From the NCBI RefSeq assembly GCF_947498005.1, contig NZ_CANMIW010000003.1:434001-498000 (forward strand): a stretch of DNA of 64,000 bases. Direction: 5' to 3'. Under the pieces are notes generated by a model that ran no database searches, had not been told where the DNA came from, and worked only from the letters and a program-made list of their open reading frames with translations. Source of the DNA: an uncultured Winogradskyella sp. Lineage in GTDB: Bacteria > Bacteroidota > Bacteroidia > Flavobacteriales > Flavobacteriaceae. Positions 3,152 through 58,677 of the stretch are shown one piece after another. Within the stretch, counting starts at the first letter, position 1. Each line of letters opens with the position of its first letter. Position numbers and translations under genes: made by a program.

Positions 3152-4189
3152 ATGAAAAGATTATTATTACTAGTTACTGCCGTAACATTAGTAGCATGTA
3201 AAGGTGAACCTAAAGATTACGTTACACTTTCTGGAAAAATTGAAAATCCAGATGAAAGTAAAACGCTTAAAATTTTTAAAGGTAAGAGCTACGAAAAACT
3301 GATTACATTAAATGATGATGGTTCTTTTTCAGATACATTGAAAGTTGTAGCAGGTGATTACAATCTTCAGCATGGTAAAGAATATGGAACTATTTATTTA
3401 GAGAATGATAATTCTTCTTCTTTTGAAACAGATTATGAATCTTTTATTGATTCTATGGTTTTTAAAGGTGATGGCGCTGATACAAATAACTTTTCTTTAA
3501 AATCCTACACTATGGGTAAGGATTATTTTACTGAAGACCTTGTTTCTAAAGGTAGTAAAGAAGATGTTGAAAAAGCGTTAGAAGATTACCAATCTGCTTA
3601 TCAAGATTTAAAACAGAAATATCCTGCTGTGGATTCTACCCATTTGGCATTAATGGATAAGAACGTAGATCGCACAGTAAAGCAGATAGATCAGTTTGTG
3701 AGTTCTAAATTTGCCATTATTGGTGCATTACCTAAAGGATCTATATCTCCAACTTTTGAAAATTATGAAAACTATGCTGGTGGCACAATGTCACTTTCAG
3801 ATTTAAAAGGTAAATACGTTTATATTGATATTTGGGCTACTTGGTGTCCTCCTTGTATTAGAGAAATTCCATCTCTTAAGAAGATTGAAAAGCAATATCA
3901 TGGTAAAAACATTGCGTTTGTAAGTATCTCTGTAGATAATGGTCGTGGTTACAAAAATGATGCAGCTGCTGCATATCAAGGTTGGAAAAAAATGATTGTA
4001 GATAAAGAATTAAGCGGAATTCAGTTGTATGCAGATAATGGTTTCCGATCTGATTTCATCAAAAACTATAAAATTAATGGAATTCCTCGATTTATCTTAA
4101 TTGACCCAAATGGTAATATTGTAAGTGCTGATGCACCAAGACCATCAAGCCCGAGCTTAATAGAATTATTTAACGAATTAGAAATTTAA
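3152..4189 (+). CDS. TlpA-like thioredoxin-fold lipoprotein with N-terminal DUF4369-type domain
   Basis: A 345-residue protein with a lipoprotein signal ending in lipobox LVAC (Cys16), so it should be anchored on the periplasmic side of a membrane. The N-terminal half resembles the beta-rich DUF4369 domain often joined to redoxins in Bacteroidota. The C-terminal half, from about residue 195, is an AhpC/TSA-thioredoxin fold with active site WCPPC (Cys232, Cys235) and a cis-proline segment in NGIPRFILID. Probably a thiol-disulfide oxidoreductase acting on envelope proteins. The exact partner (for example cytochrome c maturation) is not shown. Confidence 0.88.
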   Translation: MKRLLLLVTAVTLVACKGEPKDYVTLSGKIENPDESKTLKIFKGKSYEKLITLNDDGSFSDTLKVVAGDYNLQHGKEYGTIYLENDNSSSFETDYESFIDSMVFKGDGADTNNFSLKSYTMGKDYFTEDLVSKGSKEDVEKALEDYQSAYQDLKQKYPAVDSTHLALMDKNVDRTVKQIDQFVSSKFAIIGALPKGSISPTFENYENYAGGTMSLSDLKGKYVYIDIWATWCPPCIREIPSLKKIEKQYHGKNIAFVSISVDNGRGYKNDAAAAYQGWKKMIVDKELSGIQLYADNGFRSDFIKNYKINGIPRFILIDPNGNIVSADAPRPSSPSLIELFNELEI

Positions 4190-4210
4190 ATTATTCATAA
4201 TAGAAGCATT

Positions 4211-4246
4211 AAAAAGCCAAACATTTTAACTGTTTGGCTTTTTTTT
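4211..4246. terminator. Bidirectional intrinsic terminator
   Basis: A 10-bp stem AAGCCAAACA / TGTTTGGCTT (4214-4223 with 4231-4240) and a 7-base loop, with A-run and T-run flanks. It lies between the convergent redoxin and nnr genes and can serve both. Confidence 0.88.
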
Positions 4247-4250
4247 ATGA

Positions 4251-5813
4251 TTATTGTTTTGGTTTTTCGTCTGGCTGTTCTTCTTGTGGCGGCTCTGGTT
4301 TTTTAAATAAATCAATATATGCTTTACTCACACCTTCAATGATATGGCTCGCAATTAAACTTTGATAACCATAGTCTTCGAGTTGAAGATCTGCTGCTTT
4401 GCCATGTAGATAAACCGCAAAAATAGTTGCAGATAACTGCTCATAGCCTTGTGCAACTAAACCACATATTATTCCGGTTAAAACATCGCCACTTCCTGCT
4501 GTGGCCATACCAGGATTTCCTGTTGTATTTATGTAAAATTTATCTTGAAAAACGGTTATAGTATTTGCACCTTTTATAACTACAATCAGATTATATTTTT
4601 TAGAGAATGCTTTTACCTTTTTTAATTTATCAAAATCATCTGACCATTTACCAATTAAACGCTCTAACTCTTTAGGATGTGGTGTGAGGATGGTAAATTC
4701 TGGTAGTAATTTTAATAACGCTTTCTTTTTAGATAAAATATTAAGACCATCTGCATCTACAACTAATGGGCTTTTATTTTCTTTTAAGAAAGCTTCAAAA
4801 GCTTTTATTGTTCTCCCAGAAGTACCTAGCCCTACTCCTACTCCAATAACTGTTGGATCTAAATCAAAACTGATATTAGAAATATGAGTTTCATCACTAT
4901 CTGTAATGACCATTATTTCTGGTATTGCAGATTGTAAACTATGGTAACCACATTTTGGAGTATATGCTGTAACTAAACCTGCTCCAGAACCTAAAGCTGC
5001 TCTGCTCGCTAAATTTACAGCTCCGATTTTGCCATAACTTCCTCCTAAAATCATGACATGTCCAAATTCTCCTTTGTGAGAAAACTTTTGTCTTGGCTTA
5101 TAAAGTGGTAATACTTCATGTTTTGAAATAAGCTCTACTTCTGTGTCTGTTTTTATTAAATAATCGCGATCAATACCAATATCTAAAGCTTCCCATTGTA
5201 CTGTGTATTTTGCTGTTTCTGGTAAAAAGAACACTAATTTAGGCGATTGAAAACTTAAGGTGTAATTGGCATTAACAACATCCTTTTCATCTTCTACTCT
5301 TTTGTCTGTAAATAATCCTGAAGGTATATCAATTGATAACGTAAACGCTTTAGAAATTCTAAATTGCTCAAAAAGGGCTTTTACCCAATCGTTTGGCGGA
5401 CGATTTATACCAATCCCAAAAACAGCATCTACTATTATATCTTCCTCCTTTATAACTATTTCAGAAAAATCATTTTCACAACTCAACATTTTAGGCCAAT
5501 CCTTCGTAACATTTTTTATACGATCGTAGTTAATTAAAAAATCTTTAGATCGTTTATCACTACAATTGACAATATAAGTGACCACATTATAGCCATGAGT
5601 TACTAAATGCCTTGCTAACACTAAACCATCGCCTCCATTATTACCTATTCCACAGAACACGTGGATTGGTACTTGAGCGCCTTGCATACGCATGTGAATC
5701 CAGTTAAAAATCTGAATTCCCGCGCGTTCCATTAAATCTGTTGATGTTATTTTTTGACGTTCTGTAGTTAGTTTATCGCCTTCATAAATTTGTTCTTTAG
5801 AAAATAATTTCAT
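4251..5813 (-). CDS. nnr: Bifunctional NAD(P)H-hydrate epimerase / ADP-dependent NAD(P)H-hydrate dehydratase
   Basis: A 520-residue fusion that repairs hydrated NADH and NADPH. The N-terminal YjeF_N epimerase domain shows GIGNNGGDG at residues 55-63 and the conserved DAVFGIG segment. The C-terminal ribokinase-like dehydratase domain starts near residue 245 (GHVMILGGSYGKIGA) and carries GNPGMATAGSGDVLTG, the nucleotide-binding and catalytic-Asp motif. Both activities therefore look intact. A proline/glutamate-rich tail of about 15 residues is probably disordered. It acts in the cytosol as a housekeeping repair enzyme. Confidence 0.95.
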   Translation of the reverse strand: MKLFSKEQIYEGDKLTTERQKITSTDLMERAGIQIFNWIHMRMQGAQVPIHVFCGIGNNGGDGLVLARHLVTHGYNVVTYIVNCSDKRSKDFLINYDRIKNVTKDWPKMLSCENDFSEIVIKEEDIIVDAVFGIGINRPPNDWVKALFEQFRISKAFTLSIDIPSGLFTDKRVEDEKDVVNANYTLSFQSPKLVFFLPETAKYTVQWEALDIGIDRDYLIKTDTEVELISKHEVLPLYKPRQKFSHKGEFGHVMILGGSYGKIGAVNLASRAALGSGAGLVTAYTPKCGYHSLQSAIPEIMVITDSDETHISNISFDLDPTVIGVGVGLGTSGRTIKAFEAFLKENKSPLVVDADGLNILSKKKALLKLLPEFTILTPHPKELERLIGKWSDDFDKLKKVKAFSKKYNLIVVIKGANTITVFQDKFYINTTGNPGMATAGSGDVLTGIICGLVAQGYEQLSATIFAVYLHGKAADLQLEDYGYQSLIASHIIEGVSKAYIDLFKKPEPPQEEQPDEKPKQ

Positions 5814-6022
5814 TTTACTAGTTATAATTTTAAAGTGATTACCTGTAACATTATAAATAAACTCATTTTGAGAATTTATTTCAACATAGTGATTGTTACA
5901 TGTGAATTGTTTAACACAAGTTGTAAAATGCTAGCAATAATTCAATTTAATTGCAAAGACTAGCCCTTTTTTACAAATTCCTTAAAAAGGAATAATTAGT
6001 TTTTTTATTACTGTAAAAATAA
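5814..6022. other. Intergenic region upstream of the thr promoter, with a short hairpin
   Basis: AT-rich, no ORF. ATTCCTT / AAGGAAT at 5977-5993 forms a 7-bp hairpin with a 3-base loop, followed by AATTAG and a run of seven T. It could be a plus-strand terminator that insulates the thr operon or a protein site. The promoter of nnr must also lie here, but no clear box is visible for it. Confidence 0.4.
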
Positions 6023-6030
6023 TACTTTTG
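6023..6030 (+). promoter_or_regulatory. Promoter -7 box of the thr operon
   Basis: TACTTTTG matches TAnnTTTG exactly. Transcription would begin near 6036, leaving a transcribed leader of roughly 165 bases before thrA, unusually long next to other boxes in the window. Confidence 0.6.
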
Positions 6031-6037
6031 ACATGTA

Positions 6038-6145
6038 ATGACGAAAAAAATAAACATATCAGAAAATACAATCTCACATACATTCGGTATGTCTATTTCT
6101 ATGTTTTTTATTTCAACTATTATTACCCTTTGGGGTAATTTATAA
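6038..6145 (+). CDS. thrL: Candidate threonine-operon leader peptide
   Basis: A 35-codon ORF (ATG at 6038, TAA at 6143) in the leader of thrA. Its C-terminal part reads FFISTIITLWGNL, with adjoining Ile and Thr codons (ATT TCA ACT ATT ATT ACC), the two amino acids that control the E. coli thr attenuator. The control codons run directly into a hairpin, ATTACCC / GGGTAAT (6122-6128 with 6133-6139). The ATG is only a few bases after the predicted transcription start; internal ATG codons at 6089 and 6101 would give shorter peptides with the same Thr/Ile core. Leader function is inferred from position and codon content. Confidence 0.5.
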   Translation: MTKKINISENTISHTFGMSISMFFISTIITLWGNL

Positions 6146-6190
6146 TATGCTTTCCGTCCCTTTTTGTCTATACAGACATTTTATTCTCTT
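6122..6190 (+). promoter_or_regulatory. Possible attenuator region between leader ORF and thrA
   Basis: Two short hairpins follow the control codons: ATTACCC/GGGTAAT (6122-6139), and TGTCT/AGACA with loop ATAC (6165-6178) followed by a T-rich tail (6179-6190). ATGTCT inside the leader (6089-6094) can pair instead with AGACAT (6174-6179), giving a possible alternative fold. The terminator stem has only five pairs, so the mechanism is tentative. Confidence 0.35.
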
Positions 6191-6204
6191 AAATTATATA
6201 AAAT

Positions 6205-8679
6205 ATGAAAGTCCTTAAATTTGGTGGAACATCAGTAGGTTCAGCCGAAAACATAAATAAAGTTATAAATATATTAGATCAACAATCTAAAAACACAAAT
6301 ATTGCTGTTGTAGTCTCTGCCGTTGGTGGTATCACAGACAAACTTTTAGAAGCTGCAAATTTAGCTTGTGCTAAAAACGAAGATTACAAACTGAAATACG
6401 ATGTCATCTGGTCTATACATAATAAAGTGATTGACGGCTTATTTGAAAATTCAAATCAGAACAATGAGTTAAAGGTAAATCAAGATAAATTACGTGAAAT
6501 AGTTTCTGATAAATTAAACGAATTAAAAAGTCTACTTAATGGTATATACCTCATTAACGAGTTGTCACCTCAGACAAAAGATAAATTATTAAGTTTTGGC
6601 GAAGCATTGTCTTCTACAATAATTTATCATACGCTTAAGTCTAGACAATTAGATGCTACTCTAAAAAACTCACAAGAAGTAATTATTACAGATTCTAACT
6701 TTAATAATGCTATTGTAAATTTTGAAGTTACCAATTCTAATATTCAAGAGTTTTTTAAATCTAACTCTAATGCTATAGTATTGTTTCCTGGTTTTGTTTC
6801 AAAATCTACACATGGCGAAATTACTACTTTAGGTCGTGGTGGATCCGATTATACAGCTGCTATTATTGCTGCTGCTATGGATGCTGACGAATTACAAATC
6901 TGGACAGACGTTAGTGGTATGTACACTACAAACCCTAAACTGGTAAAACAGGCTTCTCCTATTGTTGAATTATCTTATCAAGAAGCTGTGGAGCTATCAC
7001 ATTTCGGTGCAAAAGTTTTATATCCTCCTACAGTAATGCCAGTGCTTAAGAAGGAAATTCCTATTGTAATTAAAAACACAATGGAACCAGAAGCTATTGG
7101 TACAACAATTACTAAAAACACCGTTAATGCAGATAATTCGCCTGTAAAAGGAATTAGTAATATTGAAAACATTGCTTTACTAACCTTACAAGGTAATGGT
7201 ATGGTTGGTGTTCCTGGATTTAGTAAACGTCTTTTTGAAACGCTTGCTCAAGAGAAAATCAATATCATATTAATAACACAATCATCTTCAGAGCATTCTA
7301 TATGTTTCGGAATTTCGGCAAATGATGCACAACGCGCAAAAGAGGTTATTGATACGGTTTTTGAATACGAAATTGCATTACAGAAAATAGACCCAATTGT
7401 TGTTGAAATGGATTTATCTATTATTGCGGTAATTGGCGATAAAATGAAAAGTCATCAAGGAATTAGCGGCAAAATGTTTAGTACGCTTGGCAAGAACAAC
7501 GTAAATATTAGAGCGATTGCGCAAGGTGCGTCTGAACGTAATATTTCTGCTATAATTCATAAAAATGATGTGAAAAAGGCTTTAAATAGTTTACACGAAC
7601 AGTTTTTTGAAATAAAAACGAAACAAATTAATTTATTTATTACTGGTGTTGGTAATGTTGGCGAACGACTTATTGAACAAATAAAACAACAAAAAGCCTA
7701 CGTTAAAGAAAACTTTAAAATCAATCTAAGAGTTGCAGGTTTATCTAACTCTCGAAAAATGGTTGTGAATGATGAAGGAATTAATCTTAAAAACTGGAAA
7801 GAGCAATTAGACGCTGGGGAAACAGCGAGTTTAGACGGATTCTTTCAACATGCAAAATCCTTAAATTTAAGAAACTCTGTTTTTGTAGATATTACTGCAA
7901 ACGAAGCGGTTTCTAACATTTATGGCGAATATCTAAAACAAAGTATTTCTGTTGTCGCTTGTAATAAAATTGCATGTTCTGGTAATATTGAATATTATAA
8001 TGAGTTAAAAACATTATCGCGTAAATACAATGCTTCATTCTTATTTGAAACCAATGTTGGTGCAGGTTTACCGGTTATTGACACATTAAGTCATTTAATA
8101 ACTTCTGGAGATAAAATCAATACAATTCAAGCTGTTTTATCTGGTAGTTTAAACTTTATATTCAATAACTTTAATGCTGAAACTACATTCTATGATGTCG
8201 TAAAACAAGCACAAGAAGAAGGTTATACAGAACCTGACCCAAGAATTGATTTGAGCGGAATTGATGTAGCACGTAAAGTTTTAATTTTAGCTAGAGAAAG
8301 CGGACACGCTATTGAGCTTTCCGATTTAGAGAGTGATAATTTCTTAACTGATGGTGCAATGAATGCATCTTCTGTTGATGATTTCTTTGAAACCCTGAAA
8401 ACTGATGAAGCTTATTATCAAAGTTTATTCAAATCTGCTGAAGACAATAATTGTCAACTCAAATTTGTAGCCGAGTTTAACGACGGAAAAGCAAAAGTAG
8501 GTTTAAAAGAAATACCTGAAGGTCATCCTTTTTTCAACTTAAAAGGAAAAGATAATATTGTAATGTTCTACACTCAGCGTTACCCAGAACAACCCATGAT
8601 TATTAAAGGTGCTGGTGCTGGTGCAGATGTTACGGCTTCTGGTTTGTTTGCAGATATTATAAGAATTGCTAATAATTAA
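6205..8679 (+). CDS. thrA: Bifunctional aspartate kinase / homoserine dehydrogenase I
   Basis: An 824-residue fusion catalysing the first and third steps from aspartate to threonine. The aspartokinase domain begins with KFGGTSVG (residues 4-11) and is followed by tandem ACT domains (about 310-460) for feedback control. The homoserine dehydrogenase domain starts with the NAD(P)-binding turn ITGVGNVGERL near residue 475 and contains the GLPVIDTL and PDPRIDLSGIDVARK signatures. Domain order and length match E. coli ThrA. It is the first gene of thrA-thrB-thrC and sits behind a candidate attenuator. Confidence 0.97.
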   Translation: MKVLKFGGTSVGSAENINKVINILDQQSKNTNIAVVVSAVGGITDKLLEAANLACAKNEDYKLKYDVIWSIHNKVIDGLFENSNQNNELKVNQDKLREIVSDKLNELKSLLNGIYLINELSPQTKDKLLSFGEALSSTIIYHTLKSRQLDATLKNSQEVIITDSNFNNAIVNFEVTNSNIQEFFKSNSNAIVLFPGFVSKSTHGEITTLGRGGSDYTAAIIAAAMDADELQIWTDVSGMYTTNPKLVKQASPIVELSYQEAVELSHFGAKVLYPPTVMPVLKKEIPIVIKNTMEPEAIGTTITKNTVNADNSPVKGISNIENIALLTLQGNGMVGVPGFSKRLFETLAQEKINIILITQSSSEHSICFGISANDAQRAKEVIDTVFEYEIALQKIDPIVVEMDLSIIAVIGDKMKSHQGISGKMFSTLGKNNVNIRAIAQGASERNISAIIHKNDVKKALNSLHEQFFEIKTKQINLFITGVGNVGERLIEQIKQQKAYVKENFKINLRVAGLSNSRKMVVNDEGINLKNWKEQLDAGETASLDGFFQHAKSLNLRNSVFVDITANEAVSNIYGEYLKQSISVVACNKIACSGNIEYYNELKTLSRKYNASFLFETNVGAGLPVIDTLSHLITSGDKINTIQAVLSGSLNFIFNNFNAETTFYDVVKQAQEEGYTEPDPRIDLSGIDVARKVLILARESGHAIELSDLESDNFLTDGAMNASSVDDFFETLKTDEAYYQSLFKSAEDNNCQLKFVAEFNDGKAKVGLKEIPEGHPFFNLKGKDNIVMFYTQRYPEQPMIIKGAGAGADVTASGLFADIIRIANN

Positions 8680-53879: not shown

Positions 53880-54854
53880 ATGAGAATACTCAAATCGACC
53901 TTTATTTTATTAATAACTATTTCTTTTAATTCCGCTTTTGCACAGTACACGGAAGTAATCAACTCTAATCGACCAGGCGTTTCTAAAAGTGCTTTTTCAG
54001 TTGGTACAGGAGTTGTACAATTTGAAGCTGGTGCCTTTACCGTAAAAGAAGATCATGCCCTTAGAAATTATGAAGTTTCTGGTTTTGGTCTAGATTTTGG
54101 ATTACGTTACGGATTATTATTTGAACAATTAGAATTATCTCTTGATGGCGTATACCAAAATGATACATTTACTAATTACAATGGACTAGTACCTGACGAA
54201 GACGCAAGATCTAATTTTAAAAACTTTACAATTGGAGCAAAATATTTAGTTTACGATCCTTATAAAAATGCAGAAGAAGCTAAGCCCAATATTTATAGCT
54301 ATCATGCCAATAGAAAGTTTAATTGGAAATCATTAATACCAGCTGTTTCTATTTATGCTGGCGCAAATTTTGACACAAAAAATAATCCATATACTGATTT
54401 AGGAATTGAGGGCTTTAGTCCAAAAATTATGATTGCAACTCAGAACAATTTTAATGGAGGTTGGGTTTTTGTAATGAATTTAATTAAAGATAGAATTGGA
54501 ACAGATCAATCTGATTTTTCATACATACTTACGTTAACCCATTCTTTTACACCGCAATGGGTAGTTTTTGGAGAAACTCAAGGTATTAAAAGTGATTTTT
54601 ATGCTGATAATATTCTGAGGTTTGGTGGTGCATATCTCTGGACAAGAGATTTTCAACTAGATGCCAACATTGCATTTAATACCAAAGACACACCAACTGT
54701 TTTCAATATCGCTTTTGGAGCTTCTTACCGCTTAGACTTTCATAAAGACAAAAAGATTGATAATGGTAATTCCGCTAAAGATGGAAATGGTAAAATGCGT
54801 AAAACCAAAAAGAAGAAGAAAAAGAAAGAAGCAGATGATTTTGATTCTGAATAA
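53880..54854 (+). CDS. Outer-membrane transporter-like beta-barrel protein
   Basis: 324 residues with a Sec signal peptide (cleavage in SAFA-Q). The mature part is beta-barrel-like, with TEVINSNRPGVSKSAFSVGTG at the start, a motif seen in the MetA-pathway outer-membrane transporter family (PF13557). The C-terminus is a charged tail with a poly-lysine run (KKKKKKK) and acidic end, which is unusual. It is followed 17 bases later by a GNAT gene on the same strand. Confidence 0.8.
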   Translation: MRILKSTFILLITISFNSAFAQYTEVINSNRPGVSKSAFSVGTGVVQFEAGAFTVKEDHALRNYEVSGFGLDFGLRYGLLFEQLELSLDGVYQNDTFTNYNGLVPDEDARSNFKNFTIGAKYLVYDPYKNAEEAKPNIYSYHANRKFNWKSLIPAVSIYAGANFDTKNNPYTDLGIEGFSPKIMIATQNNFNGGWVFVMNLIKDRIGTDQSDFSYILTLTHSFTPQWVVFGETQGIKSDFYADNILRFGGAYLWTRDFQLDANIAFNTKDTPTVFNIAFGASYRLDFHKDKKIDNGNSAKDGNGKMRKTKKKKKKKEADDFDSE

Positions 54855-54871: not shown

Positions 54872-55990
54872 ATGATCACAATAAAAGAAGCCATATCTAA
54901 GAAGGAATTAAAGGCATTTGTAAAATTTCCTTTTTCATTATATAAAGACTCTAAATATTGGGTGCCTCCAATTATTAAACAAGAGTTAGAAACCTTTAAT
55001 AAAGATACGAATCCTATTTTTAAAGATGCAGAAGCACGTTTTTTCTTAGCCTACAAAGCAGGAGAAATAGTTGGTAGAATCTCAGCAATTGTGAATTGGC
55101 TAGAAGTAGATAAACAAAACATTAAAAAAATGCGTTTTGGCTGGTTTGATTTTATTGATGATTTAGAGGTTAGTAAAAAATTACTCGAAACTGTTGAAAA
55201 TATTGGCAGAGAGCATCAACTTAGTTATACAGAAGGTCCTGTTGGATTTTCTAATTTAGATAAAGTTGGTGTAATGACTGAAGGCTTTGACCATATAGCA
55301 ACAATGATTACTTGGTACAATCATCCTTACTATGTTGACCATTATACATCACATAAATATCAAATAGAGAAAGAATACTCAGAGAGTAAATTTCCTTTTG
55401 CCAATGTAAAACCTGAGTTTTTTAAGAAAGCGCAAGAGCTTATTAAACGACGCTATAAATTAAAAGCGCTACAACTAAAGACCACGGAAGAAGTTATGCC
55501 TTACGCAGATCGTATGTTTGATTTGTTTAATGAAAGTTATTCCTCATTATCTTCATTTGTCGAGATTACAGATATTCAAAAGGAATATTTTAAAAAGAAA
55601 TTTATAAGTTTTGTTAATCCAGAATACATCAAATTTGTCACTGATGAAAATGACAAGCTTGTCGGATTTGCTATTGTAATGCCAAGATTTGCTGAAGCCA
55701 TTCAAAAAACTAAAGGAAAATTATTCCCATTCGGTTTTACGCATATCTTAAAAGCAAAGAAGAATAGTAAAGATGTTATTTTCTACTTAATAGGTATTCA
55801 TCCAGATTATCAGAACAAAGGCGTACATGCTGTAATATTTAATGAATATTACGAAACTTTTAGGGCGAAAGGAATCTTAACTTGTTATAGAACTCCAGAA
55901 CTCGAAGATAATTATGCTATTAAGCAAATTTGGAAACACTTCGATCCTAAAGTTTATACGAGACGTAAAACTTTTAAGAAAGATTTATAA
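54872..55990 (+). CDS. GNAT-family acetyltransferase-like protein
   Basis: 372 residues, longer than a single GNAT domain. The C-terminal half shows a GNAT fold with the acetyl-CoA-binding region VIFYLIGIHPDYQNKGVHAVI. The N-terminal half (FVKFPFSLYKDSKYWVPPI) resembles the YghO-type domain. The substrate is unknown; some relatives may act on lipids or peptides. It follows the outer-membrane protein gene by 17 bases and ends at a strong terminator. Confidence 0.85.
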   Translation: MITIKEAISKKELKAFVKFPFSLYKDSKYWVPPIIKQELETFNKDTNPIFKDAEARFFLAYKAGEIVGRISAIVNWLEVDKQNIKKMRFGWFDFIDDLEVSKKLLETVENIGREHQLSYTEGPVGFSNLDKVGVMTEGFDHIATMITWYNHPYYVDHYTSHKYQIEKEYSESKFPFANVKPEFFKKAQELIKRRYKLKALQLKTTEEVMPYADRMFDLFNESYSSLSSFVEITDIQKEYFKKKFISFVNPEYIKFVTDENDKLVGFAIVMPRFAEAIQKTKGKLFPFGFTHILKAKKNSKDVIFYLIGIHPDYQNKGVHAVIFNEYYETFRAKGILTCYRTPELEDNYAIKQIWKHFDPKVYTRRKTFKKDL

Positions 55991-56007
55991 CGAGTAGATA
56001 TAACCAT

Positions 56008-56047
56008 AAAAAAACGGTCATCACAAATTTTGCGATGACCGTTTTTT
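56008..56047. terminator. Bidirectional intrinsic terminator
   Basis: Stem AAAACGGTCATC / GATGACCGTTTT (56011-56022 with 56034-56045) with an 11-base loop, A-run before and T-run after. It serves the convergent GNAT and alpha-oxoamine synthase genes. Confidence 0.92.
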
Positions 56048-56063
56048 AATTTAAAGGATCAAT

Positions 56064-57323
56064 TTATTCACCCATTGCAGCGATCAATGCCGCAGACATT
56101 CTTTTATATGTTCCATTTTCTAAACGACTTCTAATGGCATCAAAAGCATCTAGTGTTTCTCTAACATCTTCTAATGTATGAGTAGCTGTAGGAATCATTC
56201 TCAGTAAAATTAAACCTTTAGGTATTACAGGGTAAACCACTATAGAGCAGAATATTCCATAATTTTCACGTAAATCCCTTACTAAGGCCATTGCTTCAGG
56301 TATACTACCCTTTAAATATACAGGTGTTACACAACTTTGTGTAGTTCCAATATCAAAACCACGCTCTTTTAATCCCGATTGTAATGCATCAACAATAGTC
56401 CAAAGATTCTTTTTTAGTTCTGGCATTGTACGCAACATATCTAATCGTTTTAAAGCACCAACTACAAGTTGCATTTGTAACGACTTAGCGAACATCTGAG
56501 AACGTAAATTATATTTTAAGTAATCAATAATTTCTTGATCTGCAGCAATAAATGCACCTGTACTTGCCATAGATTTAGCAAAGGTTGCAAAATACACATC
56601 AATATCATCTTGTACGCCTTGCTCCTCACCAGCTCCTGCTCCTGTAGCACCTAAAGTACCAAATCCATGAGCGTCATCTACGAAAAGTCTGAAGTTAAAT
56701 TTTTTCTTAAGCTCTACAATTTCTTTTAATCGACCTTGTTCGCCTCGCATACCAAATACACCTTCAGATATCACTAAGATTCCTCCACCTGTTTGTTCTG
56801 CCATTTTAGTAGCACGCTCTAAGTTTTTCTCTAAACTTACCACGTCGTTATGCTTATAAGTAAAACGTTTACCCATATGTAAACGAACACCATCTATAAT
56901 ACATGCATGTGCGTCAACATCATAAACAATAATATCATCTTTGGCTACTAATGCATCAATAGTAGAAACCATTCCTTGGTAACCAAAATTTAATAAGTAA
57001 GCTGCTTCTTTACTAACAAAAGCTGCAAGTTCATTCTGTAATTGCTCGTGTAATTCTGTGTGACCAGACATCATACGTGCTCCCATTGGGTAAGCTGATC
57101 CGTATGCTGCAGCTGACTCAGCATCAACCTTTCTAACCTCAGGATGATTTGCTAAACCTAAATAATCATTAATACTCCAAGTAATAACGTCCTTTCCTTG
57201 AAATTTCATTCTATTAGAGATTTCGCCTTCTAGCTTAGGGAATACAAAATAACCTTCTGCTTGTGCAGCCCATTTTCCTAATGGTCCTTTATCTCTATAA
57301 ATCTTTTCAAATAAATCCTTCAT
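56064..57323 (-). CDS. Alpha-oxoamine synthase (serine palmitoyltransferase / cysteate acyltransferase-type)
   Basis: 419 residues from the ATG at 57323 (the frame opens two codons earlier on a TTG). It is a class II PLP enzyme of the family including glycine C-acetyltransferase, serine palmitoyltransferase and cysteate C-fatty acyltransferase. The PLP lysine is Lys250 in FATFAKSMASTGAF and the PLP-holding DDAHGFG is at 216-222. Bacteroidota use such enzymes to start sphingolipids or the sulfonolipid capnine. Which amino acid (serine or cysteate) it uses is not decided by the sequence alone; the next gene up makes cysteate worth considering. Confidence 0.85.
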   Translation of the reverse strand: MKDLFEKIYRDKGPLGKWAAQAEGYFVFPKLEGEISNRMKFQGKDVITWSINDYLGLANHPEVRKVDAESAAAYGSAYPMGARMMSGHTELHEQLQNELAAFVSKEAAYLLNFGYQGMVSTIDALVAKDDIIVYDVDAHACIIDGVRLHMGKRFTYKHNDVVSLEKNLERATKMAEQTGGGILVISEGVFGMRGEQGRLKEIVELKKKFNFRLFVDDAHGFGTLGATGAGAGEEQGVQDDIDVYFATFAKSMASTGAFIAADQEIIDYLKYNLRSQMFAKSLQMQLVVGALKRLDMLRTMPELKKNLWTIVDALQSGLKERGFDIGTTQSCVTPVYLKGSIPEAMALVRDLRENYGIFCSIVVYPVIPKGLILLRMIPTATHTLEDVRETLDAFDAIRSRLENGTYKRMSAALIAAMGE

Positions 57324-57639
57324 GCTCAATGTTTGCTATCAATCCTTACCTCAAAATACATACAAGATATGGCAATAAAAACACCTCAACATTCAAAATT
57401 ACTAAATGAAGGTATTAAAGTTGAATTACCATAAATTGATGTTCATATAAAAACCAGCTTGTACGAGTTAGCTGTTAGAGATAATTTTTAATAATTGTTA
57501 AATTAGTTTTGTTAGTATCTGCAAAATTAGTTAATAAAATTATGACCGCATAATTTATTTATTCTAACTATTAACTAAGTTTTGAACAAAAAAAAACCTA
57601 CTACTTAATAGTAATAGGTTTTTTTTAATTATAATGTTA
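57324..57639. other. Intergenic region with terminator and possible promoter
   Basis: About 315 AT-rich bases, no convincing ORF. The minus-strand terminator of the upstream PLP gene is at 57588-57626. A minus-strand -7-like box TAATTTTG (57522-57529) could drive the alpha-oxoamine synthase with a leader of about 190 bases. I see no known riboswitch in the leader. Confidence 0.5.
57588..57626 (-). terminator. Intrinsic terminator after the CBS-like gene
   Basis: AAAAAACCTA pairs with TAGGTTTTTT (57591-57600 with 57615-57624) around a partly paired CTACT/AGTAA interior, with A/T-runs on both sides. It separates the CBS-like gene from the alpha-oxoamine synthase, so the two are probably not on one transcript. 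Confidence 0.8.
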
Positions 57640-58677
57640 TTATTTAATATATTCTATTGTGGCTTGCACTTCTGATTTTGCATCAAAAAATCCTTGATCA
57701 GACATCCATTTGTCGTTATAAACTTTACTCATGTAACGCGATCCATGATCTGGAAACATTACTACAATTTTATCTGAAGCTTTAAACTCTCCTTCTTCTA
57801 CTAATTGCTTTATTGCTTGCATCGCTGCACCACTTGTGTAACCCACAAAAAGCCCTTCTGTACTAGAAATTTCTCTAGCAGTATGTGCGCTTTCTTCATC
57901 TGTTACTTTAATAAACTTATCTATCAAATCGAAGTCCGTAGCTGTTGGTATTAGATTTTTACCTAAACCTTCTATTCGGTAAGGATAAATTTCTTTATCG
58001 TCAAACTCACGTGTTTCATGATATTTCTTTAAAACAGAACCATAAGCATCAACTCCAATAACTTTTACGTTTGGGTTTTGCTCTTTAAGATATTTTGAAA
58101 TACCAGAAATAGTTCCTCCTGTTCCACTACACGCAATTAAATGTGTGATTTCTCCATTAGTTTGTTCCCAAATTTCTGGACCAGTAGAATTGTAATGTGC
58201 ATCAATGTTTAATTGATTAAAATACTGATTGATATAAATAGAACCTTTATTTTCTTCGTGTAAACGTTTTGCAACTTCATAATAAGAACGAGGATCATCA
58301 GCTTTTACATGTGCAGGACAAACATAAACCTTTGCTCCCATAGACTTTAACATGTCTATTTTATCTGCTGAAGATTTAGAACTAACAGCTAATATACACT
58401 CGTAACCTTTTATAATACTTACTAAAGCTAAGCTAAATCCTGTATTTCCAGAAGTGGTTTCTATAATGGTATCACCAGGCGACAAAATACCTTGACGCTC
58501 TGCCTCTTCTATAATATGTAGTGCAATTCTGTCTTTTGAAGAATGACCTGGGTTAAATGCTTCTACTTTTGCGTAAAAATCGCCATTAAAGTCAGCAGTC
58601 ATTCTGTTTAATTTGATAAGTGGTGTATTTCCTATTAGTTGAAGTACATTATCAAATACATTTTTGTTTTGCTTCAT
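57640..58677 (-). CDS. Cystathionine-beta-synthase-like PLP enzyme, candidate cysteate synthase
   Basis: 345 residues of the fold-type II PLP family. The PLP lysine is Lys48 in [15 protein letters not shown], the substrate loop TTSGNTG is at 74-80 and the phosphate loop SGTGGTISG follows. The C-terminus ([18 protein letters not shown]) resembles cystathionine beta-synthase more than cysteine synthase, but there is no CBS regulatory domain. The HSS in front of Lys48, where related enzymes read GGS or GSV, is unusual. Cysteine synthase, cystathionine beta-synthase and cysteate synthase are all possible; the nearby alpha-oxoamine synthase favours the last (inference). Confidence 0.75.

Follow-up and report, generated by a model that had tools for sequence, protein, structure and literature searches.

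The cap locus and its neighborhood

We analyzed a 64,000-nucleotide stretch of DNA from an uncultured Winogradskyella sp. (contig NZ_CANMIW010000003.1, positions 434,001 to 498,000), here called the window, in which two adjacent genes had been singled out, from the letters alone, as a possible starter pair for the sulfonolipid capnine. Sulfonolipids make up a major part of the outer membrane in gliding Bacteroidota, with reported effects on hosts and neighbors. The host genome is 3.88 Mb, and the locus has its closest named relatives in Winogradskyella. Both genes exist, are intact, and lie on the minus strand. To judge from sequence comparisons, they very probably encode the starter of sulfonolipid synthesis in this Winogradskyella-like flavobacterium, a cysteate synthase (CapA) and a cysteate acyltransferase (CapB) that uses pyridoxal phosphate (PLP), as does CapA. 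A third gene, which meets capB tail to tail, is proposed here to encode the enzyme that would N-acylate capnine. The features of the locus are as follows.

54872 to 55990, plus strand: proposed capnine N-acyltransferase, GNAT superfamily, YghO/bCerS family (372 residues; YghO homology)
56007 to 56048, no strand: hairpin resembling a two-way terminator, where capB and the proposed N-acyltransferase gene converge (from folding)
56064 to 57323, minus strand: capB (sulA/cfat), predicted cysteate C-fatty acyltransferase (419 residues; K250 is the PLP lysine, and K280 corresponds to SulA K281)
57589 to 57626, no strand: hairpin in the capA-capB gap, resembling a terminator and flanked by A and T runs (from folding)
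57640 to 58677, minus strand: capA, predicted PLP-dependent cysteate synthase (345 residues; PLP lysine K48; NF053679 match)

The counts below come from a set of 60 relatives and from a phylum-wide scan of 296 genomes, both of which include the window's own genome. They were made by eye, and the relatives are not independent of each other. A genome was taken to have capB at an E value of ≤1e-90 (60 relatives) or ≤1e-110 (296 genomes).

CapB resembles cysteate rather than serine acyltransferases

The capB frame was listed from a TTG codon (56064 to 57329). The ATG at 57323, which gives 419 residues, is the likelier start, because the alignment with the solved homologue 28eh begins there. This homologue, named "Cysteate-C-fatty acyltransferase", was the best match of CapB in the PDB (E value, 1e-211; 705 bits); SulA of Alistipes finegoldii (7u7h) matched at 7e-171, and serine palmitoyltransferase (SPT) matched at 3e-69 (237 bits). 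For SulA, Lys251 is reported to bind PLP, the shared catalytic residues are given as His140, Asn53, and Arg376, and Lys281 stands where SPT has alanine (PMC9304779). By alignment, the CapB equivalents are K250, H139, N52, R375, and K280 (419-residue numbering). Among the aligned proteins, the SulA-281 position was occupied by Lys in all eight CapB rows, by Ala in all six SPT-like rows, and by Asn in the single glycine C-acetyltransferase row.

With this lysine in place, and with the E values of 28eh and 7u7h more than 100 orders of magnitude better than that of SPT, the synthase does not resemble the serine- or glycine-specific type. That it should nevertheless be SPT or a glycine-specific enzyme, and the locus lead to a sphingolipid or an unrelated aminoketone, is extremely unlikely: the fold and superfamily are common to all of them and the SPT model NF047600 heads the NCBIfam names for CapB, yet it does so with 292.3 bits against a cut-off of 640. 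We saw no sign of an SPT in the window's genome, where the best match to the SPT model (2.2e-104) compares with 4.7e-102 for a glycine C-acetyltransferase (G050) and with values below 1e-200 in the 10 genomes that exceed the cut-off. CapB is accordingly named as a cysteate acyltransferase, and its predicted activity is the condensation of cysteate with an acyl chain carried on acyl carrier protein (acyl-ACP).

In some genomes, CapB is naturally fused to an acyl-AMP ligase and an acyl carrier protein, as at L229:1146-4577, at L231:1472-4852, and in L230 (frame 4074-7412). These fusions are open frames of 1,113 to 1,171 residues with the CapB-type lysine in all three (Pfam was run on two of the three), and they fit acyl-ACP as the donor, which is the reported preference of SulA. 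Separately, Flavobacterium sp. KMS (G360, locus L120) has two strong CapB matches (C6:51176-52408 and C33:20223-21464), which are 75% and 63% identical to the window's protein, the second with one stop in the matched frame.

CapA exceeds the curated cut-off for cysteate synthases

CapA scored 652.4 bits with the NCBI curated model NF053679 (CysteaSynCapA), above its cut-off of 600, which none of 14 controls exceeded. Its best PDB match (E value, 3e-154) was 9k2p, which was deposited under the name of a PLP-dependent protein beta subunit; cystathionine beta-synthase came second (7e-82). In a tree of 22 CapA relatives, which holds no named characterized enzyme, the window protein fell into a clade of 10 products of capB-linked genes (support, 100/99). 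A paralogue from the same genome, 54% identical, fell into the sister clade. This paralogue (G000:C9:121332-122303, locus L211) is also retained in the two relatives from the genus that have no capB. Among the 60 relatives, a CapA above the cut-off was found in 34, all members of the genus, with capB no more than 1 kb away in 32 of these 34. Two genomes of the genus (G002:C17 and G004:C1) have a gap of 11 to 13 kb between capA and capB, as though by insertion. In G022, capB is present and CapA is found as a fragment only.

The PLP gene could in principle encode a cysteine synthase or a cystathionine beta-synthase that simply lies beside capB. This is very unlikely. The protein does belong to the fold-type II family, it reaches 394 bits with TIGR01137 (cut-off, 510), and the genome has the 54% identical paralogue. 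Against this, CapA stays under each cut-off listed for a cysteine or cystathionine synthase and passes that for cysteate synthase, and its clade is that of the capB-linked CapA proteins. Moreover, G001 and G028, two genomes of the genus that are both 83% complete, have neither capB nor a CapA above the cut-off, yet they keep the paralogue. The predicted activity of CapA is the formation of cysteate from O-phosphoserine and sulfite.

The original prediction had drawn attention to an unusual HSS before the PLP lysine. The motif is present, next to K48, and it is not diagnostic of a cysteate synthase. Histidine occupied the first place in 8 of 10 CapA proteins from capB-linked genes (the others have L and D) and in 3 of 7 paralogues of the sister clade. 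We therefore rejected HSS as a marker, as it varies among capB-linked CapA proteins and is partly common to paralogues.

Taken as a whole, these comparisons support a sulfonolipid starter pair: we looked for each of the sequence-based results that would speak for another assignment, and none was found. Two observations count against this assignment. The capB-linked CapA proteins of other families scored 474 to 556 bits with NF053679, below the cut-off, which marks that cut-off as a strict one. The second is the stable hairpin at about 57589 to 57626, which bears out the terminator that had been predicted between the two genes (-18.1 kcal/mol; z = -5.2; none of 200 shuffles was as stable) and which argues against a single simple capA-capB transcript.

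A candidate reductase lies outside the cap locus

The cap locus of the window holds no 3-ketocapnine reductase, the enzyme of the third step, and a search elsewhere in the genome, which had been suggested, yielded one candidate. The short-chain reductase at G000:C14:16734-17531 (281 residues) stands out with 265.6 bits to the KdsR model NF049977, the next best protein reaching 114; the cut-off of this model is 400. The same candidate is the genome's best match (32%; E value, 4e-32) to a reductase that G038 encodes in its capA-capB interval. A CerR-like epimerase was rejected as the reductase: matches in the genome were weak, the best at 1.4e-9.

In three other families of the order, capA and capB flank a short-chain reductase gene (L044:8503-9375, L051:7413-8270, and L042, up to 8131). 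These are likely 3-ketocapnine reductases of the cluster; two of the three were assigned by family scan, and the third by eye. In two other species, reductases are described as scattered away from capA and capB in the available text of PMC11211663.

The neighbor of capB belongs to the YghO family

The gene at 54872 to 55990 converges on capB, with 73 bases between the ends of the two genes. Its protein has no informative NCBIfam match. Compared with YghO of E. coli BL21, it was 24.6% identical (E value, 1.4e-33 by blastp) over residues 1 to 372, and the profile gave 208 bits. The structural model had a mean predicted local distance difference test score of 86, and its top Foldseek matches were GNAT proteins, several of them tandem (E values from 2e-12; TM-scores of 0.5 to 0.7). 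Against PDB sequences, the GNAT profile gave nothing significant (best E value, 0.0034), the matches being mostly small acetyltransferases. YghO is listed, in the part of PMC9386255 available to us, alongside CC_1154, a predicted acyl coenzyme A N-acyltransferase needed for dihydroceramide in Caulobacter. In E. coli BL21, yghO adjoins genes for an acyl-AMP ligase, an epimerase, an acyl carrier protein, and spt, on the opposite strand.

Relatives of this gene are tied to sphingolipid-type synthases in many other families. SPT-like genes were called at an E value of ≤1e-110 with NF047600; the curated cut-off was passed by only 10 of the 296 genomes, and most SPT names in the phylum scan are therefore by similarity. 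A second type of GNAT relative (about 245 to 290 bits) had places in 79 of the 296 genomes among the matches listed. After 11 genomes with no listed place for an SPT-like gene were set aside, this type directly adjoined an SPT-like gene on the same strand in 54 of 68 genomes, again among the matches listed. Adjacency was also seen in 15 of 20 selected loci, which is not an unbiased rate, as these loci were picked by eye and several of them for visible adjacency. In G048, from the same order, the SPT-like, GNAT, and epimerase genes share a strand, with gaps of 35 and 4 bases, and the SPT-like protein reaches 545 of the 640 bits. The same three kinds of gene lie together in L040, L147, L148, L149, and L161, of the same order or class, although PMC11334938 describes the three ceramide genes of sphingolipid-producing Bacteroidota as lying apart.

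Three loci (L232, L233, and L234) carry an SPT-like synthase and a full YghO-type GNAT domain in single frames of 799 to 847 residues. In all three of the long frames read, the GNAT domain follows the synthase and scores 213 to 236 bits. Such fusions are strong evidence that the two proteins serve one pathway. Among the 288 genomes with capB or an SPT-like gene, only 6 had no GNAT match; among the 8 with neither, the match was absent in 5, weak in 1, and clear in 2 (G124 and G136).

The GNAT gene and capB occur together in close relatives

Of the 60 relatives, 50 had both capB and a GNAT relative, 2 had capB only, 8 had neither, and none had a GNAT relative only. With a stricter GNAT limit (E value, 1e-40), these numbers became 45, 7, 8, and 0. 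Two of the eight genomes with neither gene are of the same genus and 83% complete, and assembly gaps may explain them. We then compared 80 named loci, the best 80 of 593 confirmed ones and all from close relatives. In 70 of them, capB follows the GNAT gene tail to tail, at a distance of ≤1 kb in 62 of these 70.

A tree of 70 GNAT proteins placed the window protein among 21 that form one clade (support, 100/98), all from genomes with capB. In the sister clade of 11 (97/86), most of the source genomes have no capB, which is present only in G134 and G090. Across the 36 rows of the window type, defined in the phylum scan by an E value of ≤1e-110, the distribution of capB on this tree required 3 changes; shuffles needed 8.2 on average, and none of 500 was as low, with the shuffles taking no account of kinship. 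The frames of L149, L162, L164, and L179 were too short after the start-codon rule and were left out of this tree; those of L162 and L164 are window-type genes from genomes that have no capB.

From this family membership and gene context, the gene at 54872 to 55990 is probably a capnine N-acyltransferase that would attach the second acyl chain. With marginally less assurance, we regard it as the last sulfonolipid enzyme, from a branch of the YghO/bCerS family that specialized on capB and split from the branch that partners SPT. Bacteroidota would then have paired synthase-acyltransferase sets, one for sulfonolipids and one for ceramides.

Shared synteny as an alternative

A number of observations weigh against this assignment of the GNAT gene, and several of them favor another explanation: the gene may be irrelevant to capnine and stay beside capB through unchanged inheritance of the whole block. 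We take this shared synteny to be a real rival to the N-acyltransferase reading, if on balance an unlikely one. The adjacency of the two genes belongs to a longer block that is conserved across the family and consists of a YfhO-like gene, the gene at 53880 to 54854, the GNAT gene, capB, capA, and a prolyl oligopeptidase gene. As the whole block is syntenic, we rejected linkage within the family, taken alone, as proof of function. In 7 of the 10 remaining loci among the 80, at least 4.7 kb of sequence holds no capB while the GNAT gene keeps its other neighbors. Outside the family, the tail-to-tail pair appeared in only 1 (G042) of 20 regions read. The clade pattern of the GNAT tree, too, follows taxonomy in part.

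The phylum scan adds to these points. Of 70 genomes with a window-type GNAT gene, 49 have capB; the other 21 do not, and all 21 have an SPT-like gene. Conversely, 63 of the 112 genomes with capB have no window-type GNAT gene among the matches listed. Some of these 63 have the SPT-adjacent type, and many have only distant paralogues away from capB. Four genomes with capB (G110, G098, G121, and G214) have no GNAT match or nearly none. In such genomes, another N-acyltransferase must act, or capnine must stay free. We also considered the distant GNAT paralogues as the acyltransferases of the other capB genomes and rejected them, as none adjoins capB at the places listed, inspected by eye.

Other observations count against this rival. 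Relatives of the gene directly adjoin SPT-like genes in many other families and are fused to them in three genomes, and the protein shows end-to-end homology with a family that is linked to ceramide N-acylation. Furthermore, six of the seven genomes in which the GNAT gene stands away from capB have capB elsewhere, the exception being a metagenome assembly. Capnine N-acylation by the GNAT protein thus remains the reading that we prefer.

In the pathway that we envisage for the source organism, CapA would replace the phosphate of O-phosphoserine with sulfite to give cysteate. CapB would condense cysteate with a fatty acyl thioester, with loss of CO2, to give 3-ketocapnine (acyl-ACP is the substrate of the characterized SulA). 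A separately encoded short-chain reductase, for which G000:C14:16734-17531 is the best candidate, may reduce 3-ketocapnine to capnine. The GNAT-type protein would then add a second acyl chain to the amino group, as has been proposed for CC_1154/bCerS in ceramide synthesis. For Caulobacter, acylation has been proposed to come before the reduction.

Hairpins and promoters

The convergent capB and GNAT genes are separated by a hairpin at 56007 to 56048 that folds stably on both strands (-23.9 kcal/mol on the minus strand and -20.7 kcal/mol on the plus strand; z = -5.7 and -5.5, respectively). A simple consensus terminator scan reported neither of the two intergenic hairpins. The sole terminator-like site that it found lies inside capB, against 0.9 expected by chance.

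Promoter searches were not informative. The sequence TANNTTTG, which we take to be the promoter consensus, had 115 matches in the window against 113.5 expected, which is no evidence for promoters, and a sigma-70 scan found 6 sites against 13.2 in shuffles.

Comparison with known sulfonolipid and ceramide systems

The capA-capB pathway has already been published, and CapA and CapB of the window are ordinary members of it. What is new here is the gene next to capB. In Capnocytophaga ochracea, CapA and CapB are UniProt entries C7M8J5 and C7M8J6 in the available text of PMC12927429 and PMC10191378, citing Liu 2022. The consecutive accessions suggest that capA and capB are neighbors there as well. 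By description, this pair is like that of the window, a cysteate synthase with a cysteate acyltransferase; unlike it, the window has a hairpin between the genes and its candidate reductase outside the cap locus. SulA of A. finegoldii (alfi_1224; 7u7h) is homologous to CapB over nearly its full length, and the catalytic Lys, His, Asn, and Arg residues and Lys281, as given in the accessible part of PMC9304779, are conserved in CapB. Alistipes is reported to have another kind of cysteate synthase (PMC10191378), whereas the window has CapA. The cysteate C-fatty acyltransferase (CFAT) Fjoh_2419 of Flavobacterium johnsoniae, which from its description performs the same step as CapB, is reported as needed for sulfonolipid synthesis in the text available from PMC11211663 and PMC12045153.

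The 3-ketocapnine reductases KCR and CapC, as described in the available part of PMC11211663, have a counterpart by description in the short-chain reductase homologue of the window's genome. Unlike them, this candidate lies outside the cap locus and reaches 265 of the 400 bits of the KdsR model. That 2024 paper, as far as its available text goes, covers the third of four sulfonolipid steps. For the fourth, the accessible text of a review describes capnine N-acylation with no enzyme name (PMC10191378), and our literature search, with subscription papers outside its coverage, found no named enzyme for it. We consider the GNAT gene a good proposal for this step, and we did not meet the proposal in that literature. 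A concrete gene beside capB, backed by the SPT fusions of its relatives, makes the last sulfonolipid step directly testable.

The closest parallel to this gene comes from ceramide synthesis, in CC_1154 (bCerS) and YghO as they appear in the available text of PMC9386255, PMC11324152, and PMC11087976. The window protein is a homologue of YghO from end to end, if only 25% identical, and its relatives, too, stand beside SPT-like genes; to CC_1154 it is likened by description. Its predicted substrate is capnine or 3-ketocapnine, unlike the sphingoid base of the ceramide enzymes.

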